DNA of 51,403 nucleotides. Source: Myceligenerans salitolerans. GTDB lineage: Bacteria; Actinomycetota; Actinomycetes; Actinomycetales; Cellulomonadaceae. Below the pieces are notes generated by a model, which was given only the letters and a program-made list of their open reading frames with translations, did no database searches and was not told the origin of the DNA. Both the position numbers and the translations under genes were made by a program. Positions 36,142-51,403 of the stretch are shown one piece after another (the stretch's first letter is position 1; each line of letters begins with the position of its first letter). The stretch is taken from NCBI RefSeq assembly GCF_017349295.1, contig NZ_JAFMPK010000018.1:1-51403 (forward strand), written 5' to 3'.

Positions 36142-36157
36142 GGAACAAGGATGTTCC
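36142..36157. promoter_or_regulatory. Candidate SufR operator
   Basis: ggaaca-agga-tgttcc is a perfect 6-bp inverted repeat. It lies about 130 bases upstream of sufR in the sufR/padR divergent region, surrounded by a locally AT-richer stretch likely to hold the suf promoter. It does not match the published mycobacterial SufR box exactly, so the assignment is by position. Confidence 0.45.
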
Positions 36158-36288
36158 GTAAAGCGTTGCGGAGTGCTGGAACGTGGCGTCGCCACGGCAC
36201 CCGCATCGTGCCGGTTCCCGCCGAGGGGCCGCACCACCCGCCGGGCCCGCCGCCCGGCGACAGCAGGCACGACGACCCGGGAGGTGAG

Positions 36289-37197
36289 ATGAGCACACAG
36301 GTCTCCGCGGCCGCCACCGCGTCGCAGCCCGCGCATCCGCACGAGACGGACGGGACCACCCGCCGCCGCGTGCTGCAGCTCGTCGCCTCCGACGGCCCCG
36401 TCACGGCCACGCACCTGGCCTCCACGCTCGGCCTCACCGCACCGGCGGTCCGCCGCCACCTCACCCTCCTGGAGGACGAGGGCCGGATCGAGGTCCACGA
36501 GGGCCAGCCGGGCCCGGCCCGCCGCGGCCGTCCGGCGAGGCACTACGTCGTCACCCACGGCGGGCAGTCCGAACTGGCCGGCGGCTATCAGGAGATCGCC
36601 GCCGACCTGCTGCGCCACCTGCGCCGCCAGGGTGGCGACGAGGCCGTGGCGGCGTTCGCCCGCGAGCGGTACGACGCCTTCGTGCGGCGCTACGCCGCGC
36701 GGCTCGACGCGCCCGCCGCCCGTGCCGGGTCCGTGGGGTCCGACGACGCCTCGTCCCGCCCGGACGCCTCGGCGGCCGGCGCGTCCCGCACCGCCACGGC
36801 GGCGCCCGAGACAGCCACGGCGGCGCCCGACGTCGCCGCCCGCGCCGCCCGGCTCGCCGCACTCCTGAGCGAGGACGGCTACGCCGCCTCCGTGCGACCC
36901 GTGCCCGCGGCGGCGACACTGTCCGGGGACACCACCGACGCAGCCGCCCCCGCGTCCGCACCCAGCGGCGCGGTCGCGGTCGGCGGCGTCGTCCCCGCCG
37001 TCCAGCTCTGCCAGGGACACTGCCCGGTGCAGCACCTGGCCGAGGAACACAACGAGCTGTGCGAGGCCGAGGCGCGGGCGTTCACCGAGCTGCTCGGGAC
37101 GCACGTGCAGCGCCTGGCGACCATCGCGGGCGGAGCGCACGCCTGCACCACGAACATCCCCCTGGGAACGACCCCCACCACCGAAGGAACACGATGA
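36289..37197 (+). CDS. sufR: Fe-S sensing regulator SufR
   Basis: A 302-residue ArsR-like repressor of the suf operon. The N-terminal winged helix is clear ([44 protein letters not shown] written here as its known fold; short motifs [20 protein letters not shown] and [13 protein letters not shown]). The C-terminus holds the cluster ligands: CQGHC, then a Cys 13 residues later in HNELCEAEA, and another in GAHACTTN. An Ala/Thr/Pro-rich insertion of ~85 residues (about 145-240, with [13 protein letters not shown]) separates the two parts and is not usual for the family. The ATG has gggaggtga upstream. Its stop overlaps sufB (ATGA). Confidence 0.9.
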
Positions 37198-38624
37198 GTG
37201 CACCGACGCAGGAGCAGCGCACCGACGAGGAGATCATTGCCTCGATCGGCGGCTACGAGTACGGCTGGCGCGACAGCGACGAAGCCGGTCAGGCCGCTCA
37301 GCGCGGCCTGAACGAGGATGTCGTCCGCAACATCTCGGAGTTGAAGAAGGAGCCGGAGTGGATGCTGAAGCAGCGCCTGAAGGCGCTGCGCCTGTTCGAC
37401 AAGAAGCCGATGCCGTCGTGGGGCTCGGACCTGTCGGGCATCGACTTCGACGCGATCAAGTACTTCGTCCGCTCCACGGAGAAGCAGGCCACCTCCTGGG
37501 AGGACCTGCCCGACGACATCAAGCAGACGTACGACAAGCTCGGCATCCCGGAGGCGGAGAAGCAGCGTCTCGTCGCCGGCGTCGCCGCGCAGTACGAGTC
37601 CGAGGTCGTGTACCACCAGATCCGCGAGGACCTGGAGAAGCAGGGTGTCATCTTCGTCGACACCGACACGGGCCTGCGCGACTACCCGGAGCTCTTCCAG
37701 GAGTACTTCGGCACCGTCATCCCCGCCGGTGACAACAAGTTCTCCGCGCTGAACTCGGCCGTGTGGTCGGGCGGCTCGTTCGTCTACGTGCCGCCGGGCG
37801 TGCACGTCGAGATCCCGCTGCAGGCCTACTTCCGCATCAACACGGAGAACATGGGCCAGTTCGAGCGGACGCTGATCATCGCGGACGAGGGCTCCTACGT
37901 GCACTACGTCGAGGGCTGCACCGCGCCGATCTACCAGTCCGACTCGCTGCACTCGGCCGTCGTCGAGATCGTCGTGAAGAAGAACGCCCGCGTGCGCTAC
38001 ACGACGATCCAGAACTGGTCGAACAACGTGTACAACCTGGTCACCAAGCGCGCCACGGCCGCCGAGGGCGCCACCATGGAGTGGGTCGACGGCAACATCG
38101 GCTCCAAGGTCACCATGAAGTACCCGGCGATCTACCTGCTGGGCGAGCACGCCCGCGGCGAGACGCTGTCCATCGCCTTCGCGGGCGAGGGCCAGCACCA
38201 GGACGCCGGCGCGAAGATGGTGCACGCCGCACCGCACACGTCGAGCTCCATCGTGTCCAAGTCGGTGGCGCGCGGCGGCGGCCGCACGTCCTACCGAGGC
38301 CTCGTGCAGGTGCTGGAGGGCGCCAGCGCCAGCGCGTCCAACGTGCTGTGCGACGCCCTGCTCGTGGACCAGATCTCCCGCAGCGACACGTACCCGTACG
38401 TGGACGTGCGCGAGGACGACGTGTCCATGGGCCACGAGGCCACCGTGTCCCGCGTGAGCGAGGACCAGCTGTTCTACCTGATGTCCCGAGGCCTGGACGA
38501 GACCGAGGCCATGGCGATGATCGTGCGCGGGTTCGTGGAGCCCATCGCGCGCGAGCTGCCCATGGAGTACGCGCTCGAGCTCAACCGCCTCATCGAGCTC
38601 CAGATGGAAGGTTCCGTCGGCTGA
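37194..38624 (+). CDS. sufB: Fe-S cluster scaffold subunit SufB
   Basis: A 476-residue core subunit of the SufBCD scaffold on which Fe-S clusters are assembled. It is a right-handed beta helix with family motifs [35 protein letters not shown] (cluster/persulfide Cys), [16 protein letters not shown] and a C-terminal [19 protein letters not shown]. No intein is present, unlike mycobacterial SufB. The start overlaps the sufR stop, and sufD starts one base after its stop. Confidence 0.97.
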
Positions 38625-38625
38625 C

Positions 38626-39897
38626 ATGACCACTACCACTGATCTGACCACGGACCACTCGCGCGCCGTGGCCGACGGCTCCCACACCCATTCACCGGGC
38701 GCGGCGTCGGCGGCCCCGCAGGGCTCGCGCGCCGAACGCCTCACCTCGTTCTCGCTGGACGACATCCCCGTACCCACCGGACGCGAGGAGGAGTGGCGCT
38801 TCTCCCCGGTCGCCCGCATCCAGCCGCTGTTCGACGGCGGCCTGACGACCGCGGGCGCCGACGGCTCCGGCGTCCGGGTGAGCGTGGACGCCGCCCCCGA
38901 GGTGAAGGTCGAGACCGTCGGGCGCGACGACGCCCGCCTCGGCAAGGCCGGCAAGCCCGGCGACCGCACCGGCGTCGCGGCCTGGAACTCCTTCGAGCAG
39001 GCCACGATCGTGACCGTGCCCGCCGAGGCCGTCGCGTCCGACGTCACCTCCGTGCGGTTCGACGGCGAGCAGGCCGGCGCCACGCCGTCCGCCGCCCACG
39101 TGCTCGTCAAGGCCGAGCACCACGCCGAGGCCGTCGTCGTCATCGACCACGCCGGTCTCGCCACGCTCAACCAGACGGTCGAGATCGACGTCGCCGACGG
39201 CGCCCAGCTCACCGTCGTCTCCGTCCAGGACTGGGCCGACGGCGCCGTCCACGCCTCCAGCCACCGCGCCCGCATCGGCCGCGACGCCAAGCTCAAGCAC
39301 GTCGTGGTCACGTTCGGCGGCGACGTCGTGCGCATCACGCCCGACGCCGAGTTCACGGCCGAGGGCGGCGAGGTCGAGATGGTCGGCCTGTACTTCGCCG
39401 ACTCCGACCAGCACCAGGAGCACCGCCTCTTCGTGGACCACGCGGTCCCGCGCTGCAAGTCCCGCGTCACCTACAAGGGCGCCCTGCAGGGCTCCGGCGC
39501 GCACACCGTCTGGGTGGGCGACGTGCTCATCCAGGCCGACGCCGAGGGCACCGACACCTACGAGCTCAACCGCAACCTCGTCCTCACCGACGGCGCGCGC
39601 GCCGACTCCGTGCCCAACCTCGAGATCGAGACCGGCGAGATCGACGGCGCCGGCCACGCGTCCGCGACCGGCCGGTTCGACGACGAGCAGCTCTTCTACC
39701 TCATGGCCCGCGGCATCCCCGAGACCGACGCCCGCCGCCTCGTGGTGCGCGGCTTCTTCGCCGAGCTCATCCAGGAGATCGGCGTCGAGTCCGTCGAGGA
39801 GCGCCTCATCGCGTCCATCGAGGCCGAGCTGGAGAAGTCGATGAGCGTCATCACCGGCGCGGCCGCGCCGGCCGACGGCGCCGAAGAAGCGGAGTGA
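38626..39897 (+). CDS. sufD: Fe-S cluster assembly protein SufD
   Basis: A 423-residue SufB paralogue that completes the SufBC2D complex. The C-terminal region carries the conserved CKSRVTYKGALQGSGAHTVW, NLVLTDGARADSVPNLEIE and DDEQLFYLMARGIPETDARR motifs. The N-terminal ~45 residues are disordered. It begins one base after the sufB stop and ends 7 bases before the Rieske gene. Confidence 0.95.
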   Translation: MTTTTDLTTDHSRAVADGSHTHSPGAASAAPQGSRAERLTSFSLDDIPVPTGREEEWRFSPVARIQPLFDGGLTTAGADGSGVRVSVDAAPEVKVETVGRDDARLGKAGKPGDRTGVAAWNSFEQATIVTVPAEAVASDVTSVRFDGEQAGATPSAAHVLVKAEHHAEAVVVIDHAGLATLNQTVEIDVADGAQLTVVSVQDWADGAVHASSHRARIGRDAKLKHVVVTFGGDVVRITPDAEFTAEGGEVEMVGLYFADSDQHQEHRLFVDHAVPRCKSRVTYKGALQGSGAHTVWVGDVLIQADAEGTDTYELNRNLVLTDGARADSVPNLEIETGEIDGAGHASATGRFDDEQLFYLMARGIPETDARRLVVRGFFAELIQEIGVESVEERLIASIEAELEKSMSVITGAAAPADGAEEAE

Positions 39898-39904
39898 CCG
39901 GCCG

Positions 39905-40252
39905 GTGACCTTCCAAACCGCCTGCCTCACCGACGACCTGGCCCCCGAGGAGGCCATGCTCGTCGAACTGGACGGTGTCGACGGGGCACCCGTCCCCGTC
40001 GCCGTCGTCCGCGACGCCGACGGCGATTACCACGCCATCAGCGACATCTGCTCCCACGGGCAGGTGTCCCTGTCCGACGGCGAGGTCGAGGGCTGCCTCG
40101 TCGAGTGCTGGCTGCACGGCTCGCAGTTCGACGTGCGCACCGGTCAGCCCGTCCAGCTCCCCGCCATCCGGCCCGTCCCCGTCTACCCCGTGAAGGTGGA
40201 CGAAGGCAAGGTGCTCATCGACATCGACGAGCAACCCACCGGCGGCACCTGA
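39905..40252 (+). CDS. Rieske-type [2Fe-2S] ferredoxin
   Basis: A 115-residue ferredoxin of the non-heme dioxygenase ferredoxin type. Rieske ligands are CSH (ICSHGQV) and CWLH (VECWLHGSQFD), in the C-x-H...C-x2-H arrangement. It occurs within actinobacterial suf operons between sufD and sufC and probably supplies electrons during cluster assembly (inference). GTG start; ends 99 bases before sufC. Confidence 0.93.
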   Translation: MTFQTACLTDDLAPEEAMLVELDGVDGAPVPVAVVRDADGDYHAISDICSHGQVSLSDGEVEGCLVECWLHGSQFDVRTGQPVQLPAIRPVPVYPVKVDEGKVLIDIDEQPTGGT

Positions 40253-40351
40253 CCGCCCGGCGGCGCCGGGAACCGCACACCCGGCACCCAGCGCCACCAC
40301 GACCGCCGTCGTCCACCACACGAAGCTTCCGTCAGAACCTGGAGAGAACGT

Positions 40352-42708
<2,357 letters not shown>

Positions 42709-42765
42709 CGACGGCGCGGCGCGGTCGCGCCTAGGCTGGACCAGAGAACTTCGGAAGGAACAGGC

Positions 42766-43257
42766 GTGAGCTCGCTCGAGCAGATGTACCAGCAGGTGAT
42801 CCTGGATCACGCGAAGCATCCCGTGGGCCGGGGCCTGGTCGCGGTGGACGCCGACCACCTGCACGGGGAGTCGCACCAGGTGAACCCCACCTGCGGCGAC
42901 GAGGTGACACTGCGGGTCGACGTCCTGCCCGGCGTCGACGGCGGGCCCGCCCGGGTGGCCGGCGTGTCCTGGGAAGGACAGGGCTGCTCCATCTCGCAGG
43001 CGTCCGTCTCCGTGATGACGGAGCTGGTCAGCGACCAGCCGCTGGACGAGGTGGCGCGCCTCGACGCGCTGTTCCACGACCTGATGGGCTCGCGCGGCAA
43101 GGGGCTCGACGACGAGGGCGTCGAGGACGACCTCGGCGACGCCACCGCCTTCACCGGGGTCTCCAAGTACCCCGCCCGGATCAAGTGCGCGCTGCTCGGC
43201 TGGGCCGCGCTCAAGGACTCGCTGGTGCGCAGCGGCGCGTCGGCCACCAACGACTGA
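42766..43257 (+). CDS. sufU: SufU sulfur-acceptor protein
   Basis: A 163-residue zinc-binding IscU-like protein that accepts persulfide sulfur from SufS. Ligand cysteines are in NPTCGDEV, GQGCSISQAS and ARIKCALLGW. It contains the SufU-specific insertion between the second and third Cys (DLMGSRGKGLDDEGVEDDLGD region). GTG start with ggaagga upstream. A TAGGCT -10-like hexamer at 42732-42737 may provide an internal promoter. Confidence 0.95.
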   Translation: MSSLEQMYQQVILDHAKHPVGRGLVAVDADHLHGESHQVNPTCGDEVTLRVDVLPGVDGGPARVAGVSWEGQGCSISQASVSVMTELVSDQPLDEVARLDALFHDLMGSRGKGLDDEGVEDDLGDATAFTGVSKYPARIKCALLGWAALKDSLVRSGASATND

Positions 43258-43267
43258 GGTGACAGAC

Positions 43268-43672
43268 ATGACCGAGGGAACCACGACCGACGTCGGCCAG
43301 GAAGCGCCCGAGGCGCCCACGACGGAGGCTCCCACCACCGAGGCGGCGGCCGCAGCCGGCACGCCCGCGAACGTCGCCGACGTCGAGGAGGCGCTGCGCG
43401 ACGTGATCGACCCGGAACTGGGCATCAACGTCGTCGACCTGGGCCTCATCTACGGCGTGCAGATCGACCAGAACAGCTTCGCCACGATCGACATGACGCT
43501 CACGTCCGCGGCCTGCCCGCTCACCGACGTGATCGAGGACCAGTCCGCCCAGGCCCTGGAGGGCATCGTGACCGGCCACCGCATCAACTGGGTGTGGATG
43601 CCGCCGTGGGGCCCGGAGAAGATCACGGACGAGGGCAAGGAGCAGCTGCGGATGCTGGGGTTCAACGTCTGA
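43268..43672 (+). CDS. sufT: SufT-like MIP18 family (DUF59) protein
   Basis: A 134-residue Fe-S maturation factor. A disordered Thr/Glu/Ala-rich head of ~38 residues precedes the DUF59 core: VEEALRDVIDPELGINVVDLGLIY, then SAACPLTDVIEDQ with the conserved Cys. The ATG at 43268 has gaggtg at good spacing; a GTG at 43259 is less likely. Last gene of the suf operon. Confidence 0.93.
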   Translation: MTEGTTTDVGQEAPEAPTTEAPTTEAAAAAGTPANVADVEEALRDVIDPELGINVVDLGLIYGVQIDQNSFATIDMTLTSAACPLTDVIEDQSAQALEGIVTGHRINWVWMPPWGPEKITDEGKEQLRMLGFNV

Positions 43673-43675
43673 GCT

Positions 43676-45469
43676 TCACCCGGGTTTCGGGCTGGTCGGC
43701 TGACCAGGCCGGATGCGGGATGACCTGCGACAACGCTTTCGGGCGTGCGGGACGGTGGTGGACAGGGATGACCTTCTGAGGCCATCCGTTGCCCCACAGT
43801 TCCCCCACGGGATCCGAGGCGTTCTCGCAGGTGGAGGCTCAGTTCGCGGAAGTGTGCGGTGCGTCGTTCCCCCACAGGGAGCCGGTGGGACACCTGTCGG
43901 GTGGAGAGGACCACCCATGGCAGGCAAACCGGGCAAGCGCGTCTTCGGTGAGGTGGAGAAGCGCAAGAACGCCAAGACCGGCCAGGTCACGGGCTGGAGG
44001 GCCCGGTATGTCGGGCCGGACACGGAGCGACACCACCAGACGTGGACGTTCTGTTGGAGGTGCTGGATCGACGTTGAGCCGGGTATCGGTAAGACCACTG
44101 GGGACAGTCCGAGAAGCCAGGAGAGTTCCCGGCGGGCCGCTCCCGGTCTGCCGGCCAGGGCTCCGGCGGCCAGCGGCGCGTACGGGACGAACGCGGTCCC
44201 CGTTCTGGTGCAGTGGTCGAACATCGCCCAGTCTGGCTCGTGGCGGTTGAACTTGTTCTGGACGGCTGTGATCGGCGCGATCCGTCGTGCTGCCTCGAGC
44301 TGGATGGTGGTGACCTTGGACAGGCCGATGTGCCGGAGTTTGCCCTCGTCGCGGAGCGCGGCGAGTTCGCCGACCTGGTCCTCGAGCGGCACCTTGGAAT
44401 CAACGCGATGGAGGTAGTACAGGTCGATCCGGTCCACCGCGAGGCGTCGCAGGCTCATCTCCACGCACTGCCGCAGGTACTCCGGCCGTCCCACGGGTGC
44501 CCACCTGTTGGGTCCTTGTCGTGTCATGCCGCCCTTGGTGGCGATGACCAGGTGGTCGGGGTAGGGGTGCAGTGCCTTGCGGATGAGGTGTTCGACGGTC
44601 TCGGGACCGTAGGCGTCGGCGGTGTCGAGATGGTTGACGCCCAGGTCGACGGCGCGGCGCAGCACCTGCTTCGCCGCGTTGATGTCGGCGGGGTGGTACC
44701 AATGCCCGGGGCCGGTGAGTTGCATGGTGCCGTACCCGATCCGATGCACGGGCAGGTCCCCGCCGAGGAGGAACGTTCCGGAGGCTGCCGCGGGGCTGGC
44801 AGCATCGAGCGTGGTAGCGGTCATGCCGCTGTGTCTTCTTCGTGGGGCGGCCAGGGCGTCATGGACGTGCCGGTGGGCCAGGGCGGTGACCGCGTTGGCG
44901 CTGAGGTGAGTGGTGTCGATGGCGTGGACGACGGCGCCGGTGGCCGCGAGGTGTTCGGCGGCTTCCTTGTGCCAGGTGGCTTCGTCGCGGCTGGAGGTGT
45001 GCTGATCCTGGTAGCGGTTGTGCGTCCCGCGCCGGGTCAGGCGGCGGCGGATGACGTCGTCGTCCGCGGTGAGGCTCAGGAGCAGGTCAGGCGTGCGGGC
45101 CTGCTCGTTCAGCGCCCACAACAGGTCGGGGTCGACGCCGTCGAGACGCTGCATGACCAGGCCGGAGGCGACATACCGGTCCGTGATCACGATGGCACCT
45201 GCGGCGAGGCGTGGTTCGATCTCGTGCGCCAGGTGGTGGTACCGGTCGGCGGCGTACAGGCACGCGAGCGTCAGGCCGTCAGCGGCGTTCGTCATCCCGC
45301 GCGCCAGCGTCCCGATCGGCCCGTCCGAGGGCTCCGCGGTGCGGTGGACAGCGTGCCCGTCCTGGCCCAGCTGGATCGTCAGCGCGCGAGTCAGGGTCGA
45401 CTTCCCGACGCCGGAGGGCCCATCGACCGCGATGAACATCCCACCGCTCGCGGGCGGTGTGGTGGTCAT
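43676..45469 (-). CDS. Thymidylate kinase-aldo/keto reductase fusion with aberrant C-terminal tail
   Basis: A 597-codon open frame in three parts. Residues 1-~212 are a thymidylate-kinase-like P-loop enzyme: GPSGVGKST at 17-25, DRY at 97-99, and an Arg-rich lid RRRLTRRGTHNR. Residues 216-~474 are an aldo/keto reductase with HLDTADAYG (Asp, Tyr), VIATKGG (Lys) and YYLHRVD (His), ending abruptly after PIPGSTSIQHLQQN. Residues ~475-597 are translated antisense of the integrase remnant, so not a natural domain. There is no stop between the first two parts, but Met216 (base 44824) could start a separate reductase. The start overlaps the exonuclease stop (ATGA). Housekeeping tmk is normally elsewhere, so this is an accessory enzyme. 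Confidence 0.75.
   Translation of the reverse strand: MTTTPPASGGMFIAVDGPSGVGKSTLTRALTIQLGQDGHAVHRTAEPSDGPIGTLARGMTNAADGLTLACLYAADRYHHLAHEIEPRLAAGAIVITDRYVASGLVMQRLDGVDPDLLWALNEQARTPDLLLSLTADDDVIRRRLTRRGTHNRYQDQHTSSRDEATWHKEAAEHLAATGAVVHAIDTTHLSANAVTALAHRHVHDALAAPRRRHSGMTATTLDAASPAAASGTFLLGGDLPVHRIGYGTMQLTGPGHWYHPADINAAKQVLRRAVDLGVNHLDTADAYGPETVEHLIRKALHPYPDHLVIATKGGMTRQGPNRWAPVGRPEYLRQCVEMSLRRLAVDRIDLYYLHRVDSKVPLEDQVGELAALRDEGKLRHIGLSKVTTIQLEAARRIAPITAVQNKFNRHEPDWAMFDHCTRTGTAFVPYAPLAAGALAGRPGAARRELSWLLGLSPVVLPIPGSTSIQHLQQNVHVWWCRSVSGPTYRALQPVTWPVLAFLRFSTSPKTRLPGLPAMGGPLHPTGVPPAPCGGTTHRTLPRTEPPPARTPRIPWGNCGATDGLRRSSLSTTVPHARKRCRRSSRIRPGQPTSPKPG
43689..43710 (+). terminator. Weak hairpin after the suf operon
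   Basis: ctggtc (43692-43697), a 4-base loop and gaccag (43702-43707) form a 6-bp stem, extended by two further pairs across a mismatch, 20 bases after the sufT stop. It is a modest terminator candidate; no better one is seen before the integrase remnant. Confidence 0.4.
43917..44051 (+). pseudogene. Tyrosine integrase remnant (N-terminal arm domain only)
   Basis: From ATG 43917, preceded by gtggagagga, the 45 residues MAGKPGKRVFGEVEKR... GWRARYVGPD ... HHQTWTF have the look of the arm-type DNA-binding N-terminus of actinobacterial phage/ICE tyrosine recombinases: basic start, F-G-x-V-E, and an ARYVGPD strand. After TWTF the frame runs into DNA that is antisense to an aldo/keto reductase, so the core-binding and catalytic domains are gone. 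It probably marks the left edge of an integrated element next to the suf operon. The 240 bases between sufT and this ATG hold nothing else I recognise. The family call rests on motif resemblance only. Confidence 0.6.
44051..44824 (-). other. Aldo/keto reductase domain, truncated at C-terminus
   Basis: This is the reductase part of the preceding open frame, listed separately because it may be translated from its own ATG at 44824. The N-terminus TFLLGGDLPVHRIGYGTMQL is a complete family beginning and the catalytic Asp, Tyr, Lys and His are all present. The last barrel segment and C-terminal helices that normally follow PIPGSTS are missing, and the sequence passes straight into integrase-derived DNA. 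The C-terminal loop contributes to substrate and cofactor binding in this family, so activity is doubtful. Confidence 0.7.
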
Positions 45470-46107
45470 GGCAGGTCGAACAGGGTTGGGTCGGACGCCG
45501 CAGGTCTGACGGCGGCCGCAGAAGCTGCACCCAGCCCAGCGGCAAGGCCGAACTGGCGCAGCTCCTGGAGCATCGCGCCTTCACCCACGTCGCTGCCTGC
45601 GACGAGGTCCACGAACAGCCGGGCCGTCACCAGTGCGTCGTAGCCTGCGCGGTGGGGTCGCAGGCCGCCAGGAAGGTCGGTGTCGAGACGCCGGTGCCGC
45701 ACCAGGGCGCCGAGCCGGTAGCTGGGCAGACTCCAGGCGCGGCGCGCGAGCTTGAGCGTGTCGAACGCTTCGACCGGCTTCCAGCCGGGCAGGGAGCGGG
45801 TCAGGACGTCGAGGTCGACGTGGACGTTGTGCCCGACCGGGACCGCGTCGCCGAGAGCCGCAAGAACGTCGTCGGCCACCTCGGCGATGGTCGGGGAGCC
45901 GGCGACGTCATCGTTGCTGATGCCGTGGATGTTGCGAGCCTGCCACTGGATCGGGTGAGGCGGGCGTACGAGCCAGGAGCGCGGCTGGCCGATCCGGCCG
46001 TGCCGGATCGGAACGGCGGCGAGTTCGACGAGGTCGGGTGGCCGGTAGCCGTTGCCTTCGACGTCGACGACGACATAGTTGAGCTCATCCCAGCGGCCGG
46101 TGGTCAT
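45466..46107 (-). CDS. DEDDh 3'-5' exonuclease (RNase T/DNA Pol III epsilon-like)
   Basis: A 213-residue single-domain exonuclease. Exo I is VVVDVEGNG (Asp15, Glu17), exo II is VGHNVHVDLDVL (Asp98) and exo III is HRAGYDAL (His152, Asp157), giving the complete DEDDh metal-binding set. The C-terminal ~35 residues are Ala/Gly-rich. The ATG overlaps the radical SAM stop and its own stop overlaps the kinase start, both as ATGA, so all three are translationally coupled. In this setting it may act on a nucleotide or small nucleic-acid substrate rather than in replication (inference). Confidence 0.88.
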   Translation of the reverse strand: MTTGRWDELNYVVVDVEGNGYRPPDLVELAAVPIRHGRIGQPRSWLVRPPHPIQWQARNIHGISNDDVAGSPTIAEVADDVLAALGDAVPVGHNVHVDLDVLTRSLPGWKPVEAFDTLKLARRAWSLPSYRLGALVRHRRLDTDLPGGLRPHRAGYDALVTARLFVDLVAGSDVGEGAMLQELRQFGLAAGLGAASAAAVRPAASDPTLFDLP

Positions 46108-47276
46108 GACGGGTCCTCCTGGTCCGACGGCGTGGTCGAGTCCCAACCGAGGTCGGCGCGGCCGTGCAAGCGGTGCTTGTGCGGGTGGCGCTGGTCGTGG
46201 ATTTGGAAGCCGAGGCCGTGCTGGAGGAAGTAGCGGGGCTGCTCGTCCAGGCCGGCCACGACGGCGGCACGTTCGGTGATCTCCACGATCTCGACATCCT
46301 CCCTGCCCGGGAGCCGTTGCGCGAGGTCGTGAATGTCGTCAGAGGCCGGGACGTGGTGAGCGTCGGCACAGATCTTGAGTTGCTTGGCCGGGCAGATGTC
46401 GCACAGTTCCCGGATACCGTAGTGCCCGTTGTAGTCGGCCTCCTGGTGGGCGAAGGACACCGAGCAGGACGTCTTGCGGAACAACGGTCCGCCCGCGCCG
46501 TCGGCGAACGCATCCAGGATGCGCCGCTCGAGGGTCTCGGGCACGATCTTGCGCCGGGCCGTGTCGCTGTAGGGCTCGGGCAGATCGTTGGCCTTGTAGT
46601 AGTCGGCGATTTCGCCCCGGTAGAACAGCCCGGTGAACACCGTCGCGTGCGCGTGCCGGGACAGCTCGACTGCCTTGCCCAGGTGTTCGGGGGTGTCGTT
46701 CACGCCGGGTACGAGCGGGCGCCAGTACAGGATGACTCGGTACCGGTCGGCATGCTCGAACGCCGTCTTCAAGGACGCCTCGGCGATCGAGGACTTGACC
46801 GGCTCGATCCGCTCGTCGGCGATCCCCGAGTAGGTGATCAGGAGCGTCAGCCGGATGTGCCGTAGCCGGTTGAGCCGGGCGCAGTCCTCAGCGTCGATCC
46901 GGTAGCGGGTGATGACCAGGACGTGGTTGGTCAGCCCGAGTGTGTCCAGTGCTTCCAGCACCGTGAACAGGTGCTCCTTGACCCGGGGCAGGAACGGGTC
47001 GGTGGCGCGGTTGAAGATCTGGATCGGGGTCTTGTGCGGCTGGAAGTAGGGGTGGGAGATAAGTTCCCGGACGGCGTCGTCGTCGGACATCAGGGCACGC
47101 GGCTGGGTCATGTCCCACACGCCGTAGGTGTGCCGGATGCAGTACGCGCAGTCCAGCGGGCAGCCCTGGATGTGGTTCAGCGACAGGCCGGACTTGCGGT
47201 ACTCGACCACCTCACGAGCACGTTCGGGCAGCCGGGCGATCTGTTCACGAGACAAGAGCGGAACAGTGACGGGCAC
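46104..47276 (-). CDS. Radical SAM enzyme, SPL-like, with auxiliary Cys cluster
   Basis: A 390-residue enzyme. Cys39, Cys43 and Cys46 in GCPLDCAYC form the CX3CX2C motif that binds the SAM [4Fe-4S] cluster. The following barrel (IQIFNRATDPFLP, VLVITRYRID, LTLLITYSGIADERIEP, LYWRPLVPGVND) resembles spore photoproduct lyase-type proteins. The C-terminal part adds Cys271, Cys292, Cys295 and Cys303 (LCDIC...KIC), which could bind an auxiliary Fe-S cluster as in SPASM/twitch enzymes. The GTG at 47276 has ggggagg 6 bases upstream, better than the longer in-frame start at 47336. It is the first gene of a coupled operon and divergent from an HTH-TPR regulator. The reaction is unknown. Confidence 0.88.
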   Translation of the reverse strand: MPVTVPLLSREQIARLPERAREVVEYRKSGLSLNHIQGCPLDCAYCIRHTYGVWDMTQPRALMSDDDAVRELISHPYFQPHKTPIQIFNRATDPFLPRVKEHLFTVLEALDTLGLTNHVLVITRYRIDAEDCARLNRLRHIRLTLLITYSGIADERIEPVKSSIAEASLKTAFEHADRYRVILYWRPLVPGVNDTPEHLGKAVELSRHAHATVFTGLFYRGEIADYYKANDLPEPYSDTARRKIVPETLERRILDAFADGAGGPLFRKTSCSVSFAHQEADYNGHYGIRELCDICPAKQLKICADAHHVPASDDIHDLAQRLPGREDVEIVEITERAAVVAGLDEQPRYFLQHGLGFQIHDQRHPHKHRLHGRADLGWDSTTPSDQEDPS

Positions 47277-47392
47277 GGGCGCCTCCCCAAGGACGTGGAT
47301 TCCACCGCGCCGACCAGGCCGGCGGCGCACCCCCACTGTCTGTCACCCACCGCCTTGTGCTGGAGGGCATTCTGGGCGGCAGAGTCCGGCAA

Positions 47393-47454
47393 TCTGGAGT
47401 GACCTCGCACACACCGAGGCACGGCTCACTACCCTGAACGGGCGGCACTCCAGA
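47393..47454. promoter_or_regulatory. Long-range 9-bp inverted repeat flanking the regulator promoter
   Basis: TCTGGAGTG (47393-47401) and CACTCCAGA (47446-47454) are exact inverted copies separated by 44 bp. Between them lies a TACCCT -10-like hexamer (47430-47435). Two operator half-sites around a promoter, bound by the HTH-TPR regulator immediately downstream, is the simplest reading; an RNA hairpin is an alternative. Confidence 0.5.
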
Positions 47455-47482
47455 GGGACCACGAACGTCGGCGGAGGACGTC

Positions 47483-48784
47483 ATGGCCAACGACCACTTG
47501 CGACAGCGACGCGAATCCACGCCCTCGCCTTCGGGCAGCGGTCTGCCGATGTCGCGCAGAGAGCTGGCCGAGGCGGTCAACCAGTACCTCTGGCGCACCA
47601 CAGGCAAGGAGGTCCACCTCGATGTCGACACCCTCCGCCGCTACGAGAACGGACAGCCCCGCTGGCCAGGGGCGGACTACCGGGACGGGCTACGCGCGGT
47701 GCTCGGCGTGGGATCCGACGCCGACCTCGGGTTCCACCCGACCCGGCGCGGTCGGACCGCGGCACCGACGCACGATGTGGGAGCGTGGATCGCCACCTGG
47801 GCCCACAAGGATGCAGTGGCCAGCGCCGACTCCGAGATCCCGGCCACGGCGATCGATCTCTTGTGCCGCGCCGTGTTGTCCTACCCTCCTGCCGAGGGCG
47901 GACTCGATCGGCTGGAGCGAGCCAGGCCAGCCGTCGCCGGCGCCTTCGCGTCGTACCAGGCCGGCAGCTTCGAAGCGGCGGCGCTAAGGGCGTCCAAGGC
48001 TCTTGCCGCTCTGCGATCGGCGGAACACGGCCGCGCAACCACCGATGCCAGGGTGCGGGCGCTGGCGTACCAGGTCGCCGCGATCGTGCTGTCGAAGGCG
48101 GGCCGGACCGACATCGCGTGGATCGCCGCGGACCGAGGAGTCGCAGCGGCCGAGGCGAGCAACGACGCATGCCTGCGCCTGTCACTACTGCGTACAGCCG
48201 CGTTCTCGATGGCCGCCGCCGGTCACAGGGGCGACGCGCTGGTCACGATCAAGACCGCCACCAGAGAATTCCAGGGGCGCATGTCCAGGACCATGACGTC
48301 GGCAGCCGTCTACGGCACGATCCTGCTGACGGGCGCGGTCCTGCTGGCCGGAGCCGGCGACCAGAAGGCTGCCGCGACCTACCTCGACGAAGCACAGCGG
48401 GCCGCCATGGTCACCGATACCGATCGCAACGACCTGTGGACCGCGTTCGGCCCCACCAACGTCGCGATCCACCGGGCCAACGTCGCGGCCGCTGCCGGTG
48501 ACATGGACACCGTCCTGGCCGTCGGCGGCCCCCTCCGGGTCGAACACCTGCCCGCAGAACGGCGCGTGCGGCTGCACCTGGACGTCGCGCGCGCCAGCCT
48601 CGCCGCCGGGGATCATGGGGATGCCCTCGCCACGCTCGTTCGCGCCGAGGCTGCCGCGCCTTCGCAGGTGCGGCACCATCACATCACCAAAGACGTCGTG
48701 ACCTCGTTGATCACGGAGGCTGTTCGGCGACCCGGTCCGGAACTGACCCGCCTCGCCGGCCTGGTCGGCGTCCCCACCACCTAA
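47483..48784 (+). CDS. XRE-type HTH regulator with TPR-like C-terminus
   Basis: A 433-residue protein. The N-terminal ~75 residues form a helix-turn-helix (MSRRELAEAVNQYLWR, DVDTLRRYENGQPRWPG). The remainder is a solenoid of helical pairs (AFASYQAGSFEAAALRASKAL, RTAAFSMAAAGHRGDALVTI, ARASLAAGDHGDALATLVRAE) typical of TPR regulators that bind small peptides or metabolites. It is divergent from the radical SAM operon and upstream of the peptide/synthetase genes, so it is the likely pathway regulator. It may sense the peptide product (inference). It ends 6 bases before the convergent YdcF-like gene. Confidence 0.88.
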   Translation: MANDHLRQRRESTPSPSGSGLPMSRRELAEAVNQYLWRTTGKEVHLDVDTLRRYENGQPRWPGADYRDGLRAVLGVGSDADLGFHPTRRGRTAAPTHDVGAWIATWAHKDAVASADSEIPATAIDLLCRAVLSYPPAEGGLDRLERARPAVAGAFASYQAGSFEAAALRASKALAALRSAEHGRATTDARVRALAYQVAAIVLSKAGRTDIAWIAADRGVAAAEASNDACLRLSLLRTAAFSMAAAGHRGDALVTIKTATREFQGRMSRTMTSAAVYGTILLTGAVLLAGAGDQKAAATYLDEAQRAAMVTDTDRNDLWTAFGPTNVAIHRANVAAAAGDMDTVLAVGGPLRVEHLPAERRVRLHLDVARASLAAGDHGDALATLVRAEAAAPSQVRHHHITKDVVTSLITEAVRRPGPELTRLAGLVGVPTT

Positions 48785-48790
48785 GGACGG

Positions 48791-49453
48791 TCAGGACTCA
48801 CCGGCTTCTGCGATCAGTCGCTTGGTGTACCCGGCCTCCACGAGTCGCTCGTACGCGCCGTGGACGTCGTCGGGCACCTCGACCGGCACGGCGAACCCGG
48901 CGTCTGCGTACGCCCACAGCCGCTGTGTGTCTCCGACGAGCATGTTCAGCACCCGCTGCTCATCCCCGATGGACGCGATGTAGTCCTCCAGCGCCAACCA
49001 CCGGGCAGAACACACCACCTCCAGCTCCGGCCACACCTTCCGGACCGTGGCCCACGCCCGCCGGCCTTGATAGGGGCGGCTGATGATCGTCGCCGACTTC
49101 GGATCCAGCCCGCGCCCCAGCAGCAGTTCGCGGGTGAACGTGAAGTTCTCGCTGGTGTTGGTCGCCTTCGTCTCCAGCACGATCGCCTCGGGCGGGACGC
49201 CGAGGGTTTCGGCTCGTTCGGCGAAGTGCACCGCCTCTCCCCGCGGGAACCGCTCCAGAGTCGTGGGGGCGTTCGCGCCGGTGAAGACGACCAAGGGGAA
49301 CCGGCCCTGGCGATACAGGTCGGCCGCGTGCTCGGCCACGCTGATGTCATGACCACCCAGCCCGATCGCGATATCGGTGGCACGGCGCTCGTCGGGCATC
49401 TGATGGAACTCCCACAGAACCTGGGCGTCCCGGATCACGCTCGCAGAAGGCAT
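48791..49453 (-). CDS. YdcF/DUF218-like protein
   Basis: A 220-residue soluble protein with DUF218 features: GLGGHDISVAEHAADLYRQG, LVVFTGANAPTT, VLETKATNTSENFTFTRELL and TIISRPYQGRRAW. No transmembrane helix or signal peptide is visible, so it resembles cytoplasmic YdcF rather than envelope SanA/ElyC proteins. E. coli YdcF binds SAM, which is suggestive beside a radical SAM enzyme but not proof of a role. The ATG at 49453 is chosen because earlier in-frame sequence is antisense to the peptide gene. It is divergent from the small peptide gene with a 162-bp gap. Confidence 0.82.
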   Translation of the reverse strand: MPSASVIRDAQVLWEFHQMPDERRATDIAIGLGGHDISVAEHAADLYRQGRFPLVVFTGANAPTTLERFPRGEAVHFAERAETLGVPPEAIVLETKATNTSENFTFTRELLLGRGLDPKSATIISRPYQGRRAWATVRKVWPELEVVCSARWLALEDYIASIGDEQRVLNMLVGDTQRLWAYADAGFAVPVEVPDDVHGAYERLVEAGYTKRLIAEAGES

Positions 49454-49563
49454 GGCCGCCAGTCTGGCACGGGGCAGAACCGGGCGAGTTGCTGTCCTCG
49501 GGAGCGGCAGATTGCCGGGTGGCCGGTCGCAGAATGCCCTCCTGCTCCCGGTCCGGCGAGGGT

Positions 49564-49597
49564 GGTGACGCCGTCGAACACGGTCGGCGGCGTCACC
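49564..49597 (+). promoter_or_regulatory. Hairpin just upstream of the peptide gene
   Basis: Arms ggtgacgccg (49564-49573) and cggcgtcacc (49588-49597) pair perfectly over 10 bp with a 14-base loop. The hairpin ends 18 bases before the peptide ATG and just before its ggaagg ribosome site. It is either an operator dyad or a leader hairpin affecting translation or mRNA stability. Confidence 0.6.
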
Positions 49598-49615
49598 GAA
49601 TGGAAGGCAGCCGAC

Positions 49616-49747
49616 ATGAAGACGATGAACGTGGACGAGTTCTTCACCGGCCCGATCACGGCGGGCGTGCCCGAGCTGCGGGACCAGGCCGGCCGCAAGA
49701 TGCCCGGCGCCGCCGACTCCGACAAGCAGGGCGACCTGTGCGGCTGA
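49616..49747 (+). CDS. 43-residue peptide, candidate RiPP precursor
   Basis: The frame begins MKTMNVDEFFTGPITAGVPE, continues with ELRDQAGRKMPGAADSD and ends KQGDLCG. ggaagg lies 8 bases before the ATG. The peptide has no hydrophobic membrane segment and no known domain. An N-terminal VDEFF-containing part could be a recognition leader and the acidic, Cys-containing C-terminus a core, but no cleavage site is evident. It sits directly upstream of an asparagine-synthetase-like gene, separated by a 17-bp-stem hairpin. High-output precursor followed by attenuated enzyme genes is a common RiPP layout. It lacks the lasso leader YxxP and the B1/B2 lasso genes. It could also be a small regulator or an unrelated short gene. 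Confidence 0.6.
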   Translation: MKTMNVDEFFTGPITAGVPELRDQAGRKMPGAADSDKQGDLCG

Positions 49748-49763
49748 CCCGCCGCCCCTGACC

Positions 49764-49807
49764 GCTCGCGGGGACCGGGCCGCCTGGAGCGCCCGGTCCC
49801 CGCGAGC
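49764..49807 (+). terminator. 17-bp perfect hairpin (attenuator) after the peptide gene
   Basis: Arms 49764-49780 (gctcgcggggaccgggc) and 49791-49807 (gcccggtccccgcgagc) pair perfectly around a 10-base loop, 17 bases after the peptide stop and 28 before the next start. There is no T-tract, so it may reduce rather than abolish read-through and protect the upstream short mRNA. Confidence 0.8.
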
Positions 49808-49835
49808 TCCCACTCGTTGTTCGCGGAGGCCCACG

Positions 49836-50432
49836 ATGCTGAAATTCACCATCCGCCTGTCCGACCTGACCGACCCAGCCTGGAGTTGGGACGCCCGGGC
49901 GTGGCGTTCGGGCGGCGGCTGGATCGAACCGCTGGTCAACCCGTCGGTGGAGTCGTTCCTGGTCGTGACGGGGGAGCGGTCGTGTCTGGTCATTGCCCGC
50001 GAGCGCGACCTGCGCGGTCGCCTGTTCCCCGCGCCCCGCACCCTCGCCGACGCTCTGGCATGGCCGGGCGATCACGTCACTGTGGAGCTGACCCCGCAGG
50101 GCATCGCCGTTCACAACGGAGAGTTCGGCACTGCGCCCCTGTACATGACCGTCGCCGACGGGATAGCGGCGGGTTCGTGGAACGTCACCGATCTGCTCGG
50201 CCGGTTCGAGCCCGCGAAGCTCGTCGACACCGCCGTGACCCGAGCTCTGCTGCGTACGCCGGTGTACTCCAGCACCACCCTGTTCGACGGCGTACTGCGG
50301 CTGACCGAGCGCGCCACGGCCCACCTTGACACGCGCGGGGTCCAGGTCACCTACCCGGACCCGGCCGAGCATGTCCTGGCCGCGCGGGAACCGGGCGGCA
50401 CCGACCTGGTTGCGTCCTTCGACGAAGTCTGA
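49836..50432 (+). CDS. Asparagine-synthetase-like protein, N-terminal half (frameshifted)
   Basis: A 198-residue product corresponding to the glutaminase-like (Ntn) half of AsnB-family proteins. GEFGTAPLYMTVADG matches the conserved strand before the linker, and the segments ending in LTERATAHLDTRG and YPDPAEH match the region just before the synthetase domain. There is no Cys at position 2, so glutamine hydrolysis is not expected; this is as in beta-lactam synthetase and lasso cyclases. gcggagg precedes the ATG. The frame stops at TGA 50430, only 5 bases before the next GTG. Reading one base back at 50429 continues in frame into the synthetase half, so the two are most likely one gene broken by a one-base deletion. 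Confidence 0.75.
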   Translation: MLKFTIRLSDLTDPAWSWDARAWRSGGGWIEPLVNPSVESFLVVTGERSCLVIARERDLRGRLFPAPRTLADALAWPGDHVTVELTPQGIAVHNGEFGTAPLYMTVADGIAAGSWNVTDLLGRFEPAKLVDTAVTRALLRTPVYSSTTLFDGVLRLTERATAHLDTRGVQVTYPDPAEHVLAAREPGGTDLVASFDEV

Positions 50433-50437
50433 GCCAC

Positions 50438-51346
50438 GTGGTCGCTCGCCTGCCAGCTCCCGGGGGACAGGTCGCCGCCGAGCTGTCCGGCGGCGCGGAC
50501 TCGGCGGGCGTCGCCCTGACCGCTGCTGCGCGGCACGGCACCATCCGCACCGTGGGGCTCGTGGTCGACGGCGACATCGGCCGCGCCCAGGCCGGACGCC
50601 GCCAGACCCTGGTACGCCACCTCGGTGCTCACGACGTCGCCATCGCCGCTGCCTCGCATCCGCCGTTCGCGCCGGACGGCGTCCGTGGCCGGTGTGAGCC
50701 TCACGATCCGGAGGCCGCGTTCTACCGGGAGGCGTTCGACGCCCTGCGCGACGCCGCCCGCGACCACGCGGCCACCCTCGTCTACACGGGCCTGGGCGGG
50801 GACGAGATCAGCGCACTGCACCCACACGAGCGCGCGCCCGACCGAGCCGACAAGCTGGACAACCAGCGGGGGAGTGTGCCGTTGCCGGACTGGGCTGGGC
50901 CGGTGGTCCGTGCTGTAGCGGGCGACCTGGCCGCCGATGCCGCACCCGTCTCGGCGGTCCCGATCCCCACCCTGAACGCCTTCACCCTGCACAACCCCGC
51001 CTACCTCGACGCCGGCATCTGGCCCGTCGCGCCCCTCGCCCACCCCCTCGTGGTCCGGTTCGCCGAACAACTACCTGTGGAGTACCGGCGAGGCAAACAC
51101 CTCCTGCGCGAGCGTCTGCGGCGGGCAGGGCTACCCGAACGTGTCGTGCGGCCGACTCAGCCCGAGAACTTCCTGTCCCTGATGGACCGCGGAATGCGCG
51201 AGTACGGCGTGGCGCACCTGCGCGCCATGCTCGCGGAGTCGATTCTGGTCGACGGCGGCTACCTCGACGGTCAGATACTGCGGGTCGCGACCGGGGACCT
51301 GGAACGCACCGGGAGGTTCGAGTGGGTCTGCTGCACGGATAGGTGA
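50438..51346 (+). CDS. Asparagine-synthetase-like protein, C-terminal ATP-binding half
   Basis: A 302-residue AsnS-type domain. The PP-loop ELSGGADSAGVAL binds ATP pyrophosphate, YTGLGGDEISALHPHE is the second signature, and LPVEYRRGKHLLRERL matches the late helix with a catalytic Lys candidate. It would adenylate a carboxylate and form an amide, either within a peptide or to a free amine. The GTG at 50438 has only a weak ribosome site and the start is artificial if the gene is frameshifted. The intact protein would be about 504 residues. It is the likely amide-forming enzyme for the peptide encoded just upstream (inference). Confidence 0.8.
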   Translation: MVARLPAPGGQVAAELSGGADSAGVALTAAARHGTIRTVGLVVDGDIGRAQAGRRQTLVRHLGAHDVAIAAASHPPFAPDGVRGRCEPHDPEAAFYREAFDALRDAARDHAATLVYTGLGGDEISALHPHERAPDRADKLDNQRGSVPLPDWAGPVVRAVAGDLAADAAPVSAVPIPTLNAFTLHNPAYLDAGIWPVAPLAHPLVVRFAEQLPVEYRRGKHLLRERLRRAGLPERVVRPTQPENFLSLMDRGMREYGVAHLRAMLAESILVDGGYLDGQILRVATGDLERTGRFEWVCCTDR

Positions 51347-51387
51347 CAACTGACTTGCCTGCTTCGGCGGGCTGGAAGGATGTCATC

Positions 51388-51403
51388 GTGCCCAAGCCCT
51401 ATC
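51388..51403 (+). CDS. Start of a further gene, cut by the window edge
   Basis: ggaagg at 51374-51379 is followed 8 bases later by GTG with the frame V-P-K-P-Y. This suggests that the operon continues to the right. Too little is present to identify the product. Confidence 0.35.

Follow-up and report, generated by a model that had tools for sequence, protein, structure and literature searches.

An AsnB-like synthetase without Cys2 and its upstream short peptide in Myceligenerans salitolerans: a candidate RiPP family with a predicted Lys-Asp side-chain lactam

The window analysed here, a stretch of 51,403 nucleotides, is the whole of contig C12 of the 49-contig draft genome of Myceligenerans salitolerans (G000). 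Near its end the plus strand harbours an open reading frame (ORF) for a peptide of 43 amino acids (49616-49747, starting at 49616 or 49625), with a putative ribosome-binding site, GGAAGG, recognized by eye at 49602-49607. The peptide ORF is followed on the same strand by a gene for an AsnB-like protein, a predicted cyclase without the N-terminal Cys2 nucleophile. This gene is split over two frames in the window: the N-terminal part, a weak match to NF033561, lies at 49836-50432 and the ATP-binding synthetase domain, with the motifs SGGADS and TGLGGDE, at 50438-51346. From sequence comparison, the AsnB-like protein very probably has the short peptide as its partner and substrate. Both are discussed here as parts of a candidate pathway for a ribosomally synthesized and post-translationally modified peptide (RiPP). 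The predicted ring residues of the window peptide are Lys28 (49697-49699) and Asp34 (49715-49717); Asp40 is a second conserved Asp.

The region from 44042 to 51322 is collinear with two other Myceligenerans genomes (G001 and G002), at 84-88 % DNA identity. This collinearity, together with the retention of the peptide in both genomes, argues that the gene block is more than a chance arrangement. The nearest named relative among those with the block is Myceligenerans pegani (L038). A close match to the AsnB-like protein was found in 3 of 149 genomes, namely the window genome itself, G001 and G002, and none in G003 of the same genus. In both relatives the AsnB-like gene is a single ORF, of 513 amino acids in G002 and of 509-514 amino acids, by choice of start, in G001. 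Comparison with them revealed a one-base gap near 50428 within the gene that is seen in the window only; the diverging contig end, at 51323-51398, has more differences of this kind. The earlier note on this DNA had listed a Cys2-less AsnB-like protein; it is indeed present, as one gene read in two frames and cut at the contig end. Its last residues, about 17, are encoded on contig C26 (5176 bp) of the same genome, followed by a methyltransferase gene, a phosphotransferase gene and NsdA-like stretches. The methyltransferase is 86 % and the phosphotransferase 78 % identical to those of G002, and C26 is probably the contig following C12. The window-only frameshifts may be either assembly errors or real decay.

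The wider family was studied in the best 80 of at least 116 confirmed AsnB-like loci, found in a scan with an alignment of 11 sequences and carrying 20 genus labels (Streptomyces 49). Precursors were searched with an iterated hidden Markov model (HMM), for which ten seeds were picked by eye. A short ORF was found upstream of the enzyme gene in 73 of the 80 loci, in line with the earlier note, which had placed the peptide near the AsnB-like gene and taken it as the substrate. The pattern Lys-x2-[Gly/Glu]-x2-Asp is present in 72 of these 73 ORFs; only L055 lacks it, and this ORF looks like a copy with a frameshift. In the 44 distinct cores, for the extraction of which the motif was required, Lys at position 0 is paired with Asp at +6, and position +3 is Gly in 41 and Glu in 3. 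The partner peptides are 30-60 amino acids long. Among the seven loci without an HMM match, four have incomplete enzyme matches (L060, L067, L089, L112) and L092 is masked. The HMM also missed the ORF of L111 (Acidovorax), which ends in KIKGSSD plus seven residues. The window peptide had no Pfam or NCBIfam match and three other peptides had no NCBIfam match; neither enzyme nor peptide reached an NCBIfam cut-off in the scans made.

Relatives were also found by tblastn on 42 plasmid records, chiefly of Rhizobium (23) and Bradyrhizobium (12). Sixteen of 47 plasmid records were fetched (13 proteobacterial, 3 Streptomyces). For the proteobacterial ones the short upstream ORFs were listed without the HMM; the proteobacterial test set of 14 loci consisted of the 13 plasmid loci and Acidovorax L111. 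An upstream short ORF with Lys-x5-Asp is present in 13 of the 14, in six peptide groups, defined by eye, of mostly dissimilar sequences. Of the other short ORFs of the same stretches 3 of 63 contain the motif. The only locus lacking such an ORF, L181, resembles a version of L179 with a frameshift. The cores read KPYLGDD in Xanthomonas, KRRLPGD and KVRLPGD in Mesorhizobium, KGGKPGD in three Rhizobium loci, KGPFPSD and KAPFPND in Bradyrhizobium, and KFLVRGD (two loci), KFQLSGD and KFVLSGD in Rhizobium and B. japonicum, beside the KIKGSSD of Acidovorax. The Gly at +3 is not maintained in Proteobacteria and the second Asp is absent from most cores, while the distance from Lys to Asp is kept. A short precursor gene beside the enzyme gene and conserved across species, one criterion for a RiPP pathway, was found in these 13 of 14 loci as in the 73 of 80.

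As each locus has four to five other ORFs, the likelihood that a single one of these loci shows Lys-x5-Asp by chance is not negligible. In nine plasmid records an annotated coding sequence of at most 61 amino acids lies next upstream, and it contains the motif in seven (L171, L172, L173, L174, L176, L178, L184); in the exceptions, L177 and L183, an unannotated ORF carries it instead. In the last 32 residues of 14 representatives a five-residue gap between Lys and Asp occurs in 13 and every other gap (0-13) in at most 5. Shuffling gave P values for Lys-x5-Asp of 0.03 to 0.41 per representative, which are not to be multiplied because the lineages are not fully independent.

Several other genes were noted around these copies. 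Genes for acyl-homoserine lactone (AHL) synthases lie near the rhizobial loci L173, L174, L183 and L184, and the copy of R. johnstonii 3841 is also near nifHDK. A phosphotransferase gene follows the rhizobial and mesorhizobial copies L172, L175, L182, L183, L185 and L186, with a GNAT gene as well in five of the six and a GntR regulator in several. A role of this phosphotransferase as peptide kinase or in self-protection is possible; compared with the Myceligenerans phosphotransferase, it is not clearly of one family. Type I secretion genes (L175:7741-10808) adjoin the Mesorhizobium amorphae copy and a gene for an S9-family peptidase (L171:6965-8938) adjoins that of Xanthomonas. Lasso isopeptidases belong to the S9 family.

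The AsnB-like enzymes themselves have the marks of an ATP-using synthetase. In 55 aligned rows G220, D222, S223, G319, G321, G322, D323 and E324 are invariant; the loop is of the SGG type in 35, TGG in 19 and SAG in one, and the GxGGDE motif of AsnB-superfamily ATP pyrophosphatases is present. No in-frame start is followed by Cys in any of 85 genes (six incomplete enzyme genes excluded), so the absence of Cys2 mentioned in the earlier note extends to the whole set, and glutamine use is not expected. A model of the G002 enzyme reached a predicted local distance difference test score (pLDDT) of 92.3 and a predicted template modelling score (pTM) of 0.92. Its top PDB folds by E-value are beta-lactam synthetase (1jgt), carbapenam synthetase (1q15), TsnB9 and asparagine synthetases, and 1jgt is also the best profile match (E 1.3e-9). 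Beta-lactam and carbapenam synthetases close a lactam within one molecule and act on small substrates, whereas the partner of the AsnB-like family is a peptide of 30-60 amino acids. In a search of viral structures the same model matched asparagine-synthetase-like proteins of phages and giant viruses, with E-values down to 2.4e-11. Against the lasso cyclase families the proteins scanned scored 15-42 bits (at most 41.5 of the 300 required for NF033561 and at most 26.1 of the 525 required for NF033535). In a quick tree with midpoint root, 65 rows stood apart from 10 rows of the NF033561 type (Shimodaira-Hasegawa-like approximate likelihood ratio test, 100). The low scores and the separate clade speak against an assignment to the albusnodin/ikarugamycin cyclases.

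The type of the peptide corresponds to the gene that follows the enzyme gene. Peptides with GDxC are followed by a methyltransferase gene (30 of 30 loci), those with YDT by a GNAT gene (23 of 23), those with xDE likewise (11 of 11) and those with DQG..ED by a gene for an ATP-binding cassette (ABC) exporter (7 of 8); the classes were defined from the peptide alone, by rules drawn up after viewing the sequences. The rows with a methyltransferase group into a single clade of the enzyme tree, and those with an exporter into a separate one. At 41 of the 80 AsnB-like loci an NsdA-like gene is found no more than about 5 kb away. The copy in the window encodes a regulator of the HTH-TPR type at 47483-48784 on the plus strand (NF053720, E 2.3e-11, below cut-off). 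Its model is of moderate quality (pLDDT 77.7), and a fold search with it led to generic TPR proteins; Rap pheromone receptors are among these matches (E about 0.002 to 0.008). It may be suggested from this model that the regulator senses the peptide product. As to what the product does, signalling is a reasonable guess and antimicrobial action another. In 17 Streptomyces loci (e.g. L053) a conserved ORF of about 75 amino acids stands between regulator and precursor, some 700 bp ahead of the AsnB-like gene.

The remaining genes of the block all proved to be present where the earlier note had placed them, forming two separate modules rather than one. Between the regulator and the peptide ORF, on the minus strand, lies a gene for a DUF218 (YdcF-like) protein (48791-49453), which is conserved in Myceligenerans; a homologue lies within 10 kb of one (L061) of the 79 other AsnB-like loci. 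Divergent from the regulator, also on the minus strand, are genes for a radical SAM protein (46104-47276), a DEDDh 3'-5' exonuclease (45466-46107), and a thymidylate kinase and an aldo/keto reductase (AKR), the domains of which share one frame at 43676-45469. The kinase-reductase fusion reported earlier was confirmed as a single frame in the window; in G001 and G002 it consists of two overlapping genes. A window-only one-base insertion is found near 44844 and other such differences at 43974-44040, at the AKR end. A SUF iron-sulphur assembly operon (36151-43672) adjoins the island boundary. In G001 and G002 a PCMT-type (isoaspartyl methyltransferase-like) gene stands beside the AKR gene; no such gene was noted in the window, the AKR gene being followed there by the SUF operon. 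A gene of this type also adjoins the radical SAM-exonuclease pair in L146 (11083-12291), and in L099, L100, L105 and L114 PCMT-like genes are found at most 10 kb from the AsnB-like gene. According to the accessible part of one source, RiPP-associated protein isoaspartyl methyltransferases produce aspartimides (PMC13001092).

The radical SAM protein had only weak matches to Radical_SAM, PA0069 and Rv2578c, all below cut-off. Domain scans gave no match to an auxiliary-cluster domain; a Cys-rich stretch was noted by eye near the C-terminus, so that an extra cluster may or may not be present. Of 21 matches to the protein, the window's own copy among them, 12 stretches of 11 genomes outside the genus were fetched (L139-L150), leaving out the window's copy, the genomes with short fragments only (G164, G379, G311, G243, G320) and one fragment of G337. 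The exonuclease gene follows the radical SAM gene in all 12; five of them also have kinase homology nearby and one has reductase homology. Of the Frankiaceae-type copies, L144 has a thymidylate-synthase domain beside it and L146 an NDK domain. These neighbours (kinase, thymidylate-synthase-like, NDK-like) suggest nucleotide chemistry, and the radical SAM-exonuclease pair appears to belong to a modified-nucleotide pathway of its own, outside the peptide system. The radical SAM nucleoside cluster for 4'-thiothymidine was considered for this module by its description only, as given in the accessible part of the source (PMC12691670). The radical SAM protein matched no PADLOC model (E 0.001); no viperin was thus detected, which speaks against the viperin-like defence role offered earlier as an alternative.

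The two modules are, as far as seen, adjacent only in Myceligenerans. In 394 sampled genomes of the class there are 17 with the radical SAM protein and 13 with the AsnB-like one, each count including the window genome. Only two, the window genome and G311, have both, and in G311 they lie on different contigs. Within 10 kb of the 80 AsnB-like loci a radical SAM gene was met once, in M. pegani (L038), and the other companions singly: the exonuclease in L106, the kinase (36 %) in L082 and the reductase (31 %) in L090.

How the pair of peptide and enzyme works is best explained, on the sequences and models, by a RiPP pathway in which a short precursor and a free-standing AsnB-like synthetase probably give a seven-residue Lys-Asp side-chain lactam. 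The synthetase would bind the precursor with its leader still attached; cyclization before leader removal is favoured because no leader peptidase was found. With ATP the enzyme would then adenylate the conserved Asp (Asp34 here) at its side-chain carboxylate, and the activated Asp would be attacked by the epsilon-amine of the Lys conserved six positions before it (Lys28). The best-scoring folds and the absent Cys2 favour a lactam, and the conservation of the Lys favours the side-chain amine. Closure would leave a side-chain-to-side-chain ring of seven residues with, in Actinobacteria, a tail of 6-10 residues. The next gene is specific to the lineage: it encodes a methyltransferase here and in the GDxC group, GNAT in others and an exporter in a third. 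The HTH-TPR regulator probably controls the cluster and may sense the product.

Several points weigh against this interpretation. Template modelling scores to the lactam synthetases are moderate (0.50-0.59), and the highest (0.64) is to TsnB9, a hydroxyamidotransferase. The positions that align with the catalytic residues Tyr348 and Lys443 of beta-lactam synthetase are variable when aligned by sequence rather than structure, so that catalysis may differ. The motif was present in all ten HMM seeds and was required by core extraction, and for several proteobacterial loci the choice of ORF was not blind to the motif. Of the seven loci that the HMM did not match, just L111 has the motif; L075 has a leader-like ORF without it. 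The motif Lys is the sole Lys of its neighbourhood in 12 of 72 rows. In 43 of the 44 distinct actinobacterial cores there is a second Asp (+10 or +12 from Lys), which might be the activated residue or might serve in recognition. Peptide type and next gene vary together along the enzyme tree, so that their match rests on few changes rather than on 71 independent cases. Neither a leader peptidase nor a recognition element was identified at the loci, and the AsnB-like gene of the window is itself frameshifted.

Four other explanations were considered. A lasso-type product, in which cleavage of the leader would leave the motif Lys at the N-terminus and the alpha-amine of this Lys would be joined to Asp7 in a seven-residue N-terminal macrolactam, has the homology to lasso cyclases in its favour. 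Lasso cyclases (C proteins, including NF033561) belong to the AsnB superfamily, are encoded next to their precursor and form an ATP-dependent lactam from an Asp or Glu side chain, the chemistry also predicted here; moreover, lasso peptides have ring sizes of 7-9 and a tail after the ring. However, the cyclase scores are far below the cut-offs, the clade is separate, and in 14 genomes the contig with the AsnB-like gene has no match to the lasso leader peptidase B2 (PF13471) up to 600 kb from the gene, a test that is weak for the 3 of them with contigs below 9 kb. An alpha-amine would, in addition, not need a conserved Lys, here the likely nucleophile, and a lasso-type ring is thus unlikely. It is likewise improbable that another carboxylate is activated, be it the second conserved Asp or the C-terminus, or that a carboxylate is joined to a small amine (C-terminal amidation, nitrile). 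The second Asp and the score to TsnB9 speak for such a reaction, as does the fact that the accessible text of a 2026 preprint describes AS-like (asparagine-synthetase-like) enzymes acting on ribosomal peptides in this way, TsrC and ScdTA as amidating and PesC as nitrile-forming, the last from glutamine or ammonia (PMC13060819). In the present family, by contrast, the absence of Cys2 leaves glutamine use unexpected, the motif is internal, and the Lys-Asp distance survives across phyla while the C-termini are variable.

Less plausible still is that the peptide is no natural-product precursor but a small protein with a carrier or regulatory function, serving the enzyme as a scaffold for something that it assembles or attaches. 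The NsdA-like genes near 41 of the 80 loci and the AHL synthase genes near several rhizobial copies would suit such a role, but the correspondence of the C-terminal peptide type with the next gene, and the exporter in one group, argue against it. Finally, the earlier note had joined all genes into a single pathway, with kinase and exonuclease pointing to a nucleotide donor or a peptide-nucleotide hybrid. That radical SAM protein, kinase and exonuclease make a peptide-nucleotide hybrid accords with the collinear block in three Myceligenerans genomes. It is nevertheless very improbable, since the radical SAM gene is unlinked to the AsnB-like gene in 79 loci outside Myceligenerans and the kinase and exonuclease genes fall in the separate module; on this missing linkage a joint pathway was rejected.

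The side-chain lactam pathway resembles one other group of peptides. In graspetides Lys is bonded with Asp or Glu, and the enzymes are ATP-grasp ligases, not AsnB-like enzymes. Side-chain macrolactams or macrolactones are described for them in the accessible parts of two sources (PMC13097080; PMC8939145). RiPPs made by AsnB-like enzymes are known; none was found with the present architecture. In its accessible text the 2026 preprint names lasso cyclases, TsrC, ScdTA and PesC as AS-like RiPP enzymes and refers to about 300 uncharacterised AsnB-like candidates near RiPP elements as a potential underexplored space (PMC13060819). A literature search, with most subscription journals outside its reach, found six core strings in no paper and no description of the AsnB-like/peptide family.

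It may tentatively be speculated, as a possibility open to considerable doubt, that these loci represent a new RiPP class of Actinomycetota and Pseudomonadota, in which a free-standing beta-lactam-synthetase-like enzyme would form a Lys(i)-Asp(i+6) staple on the intact precursor. The product would serve as a peptide signal, sensed in Actinobacteria by HTH-TPR regulators and associated in rhizobia with quorum-sensing loci. The family is coherent and the prediction is clear: two residues, a fixed spacing and one enzyme, with intact pairs in sequenced, named strains. If true, peptide staples would be formed on a gene-coded substrate by an enzyme class that is named in RiPPs, in the accessible text of the preprint, only for lasso rings and C-terminal changes (PMC13060819).

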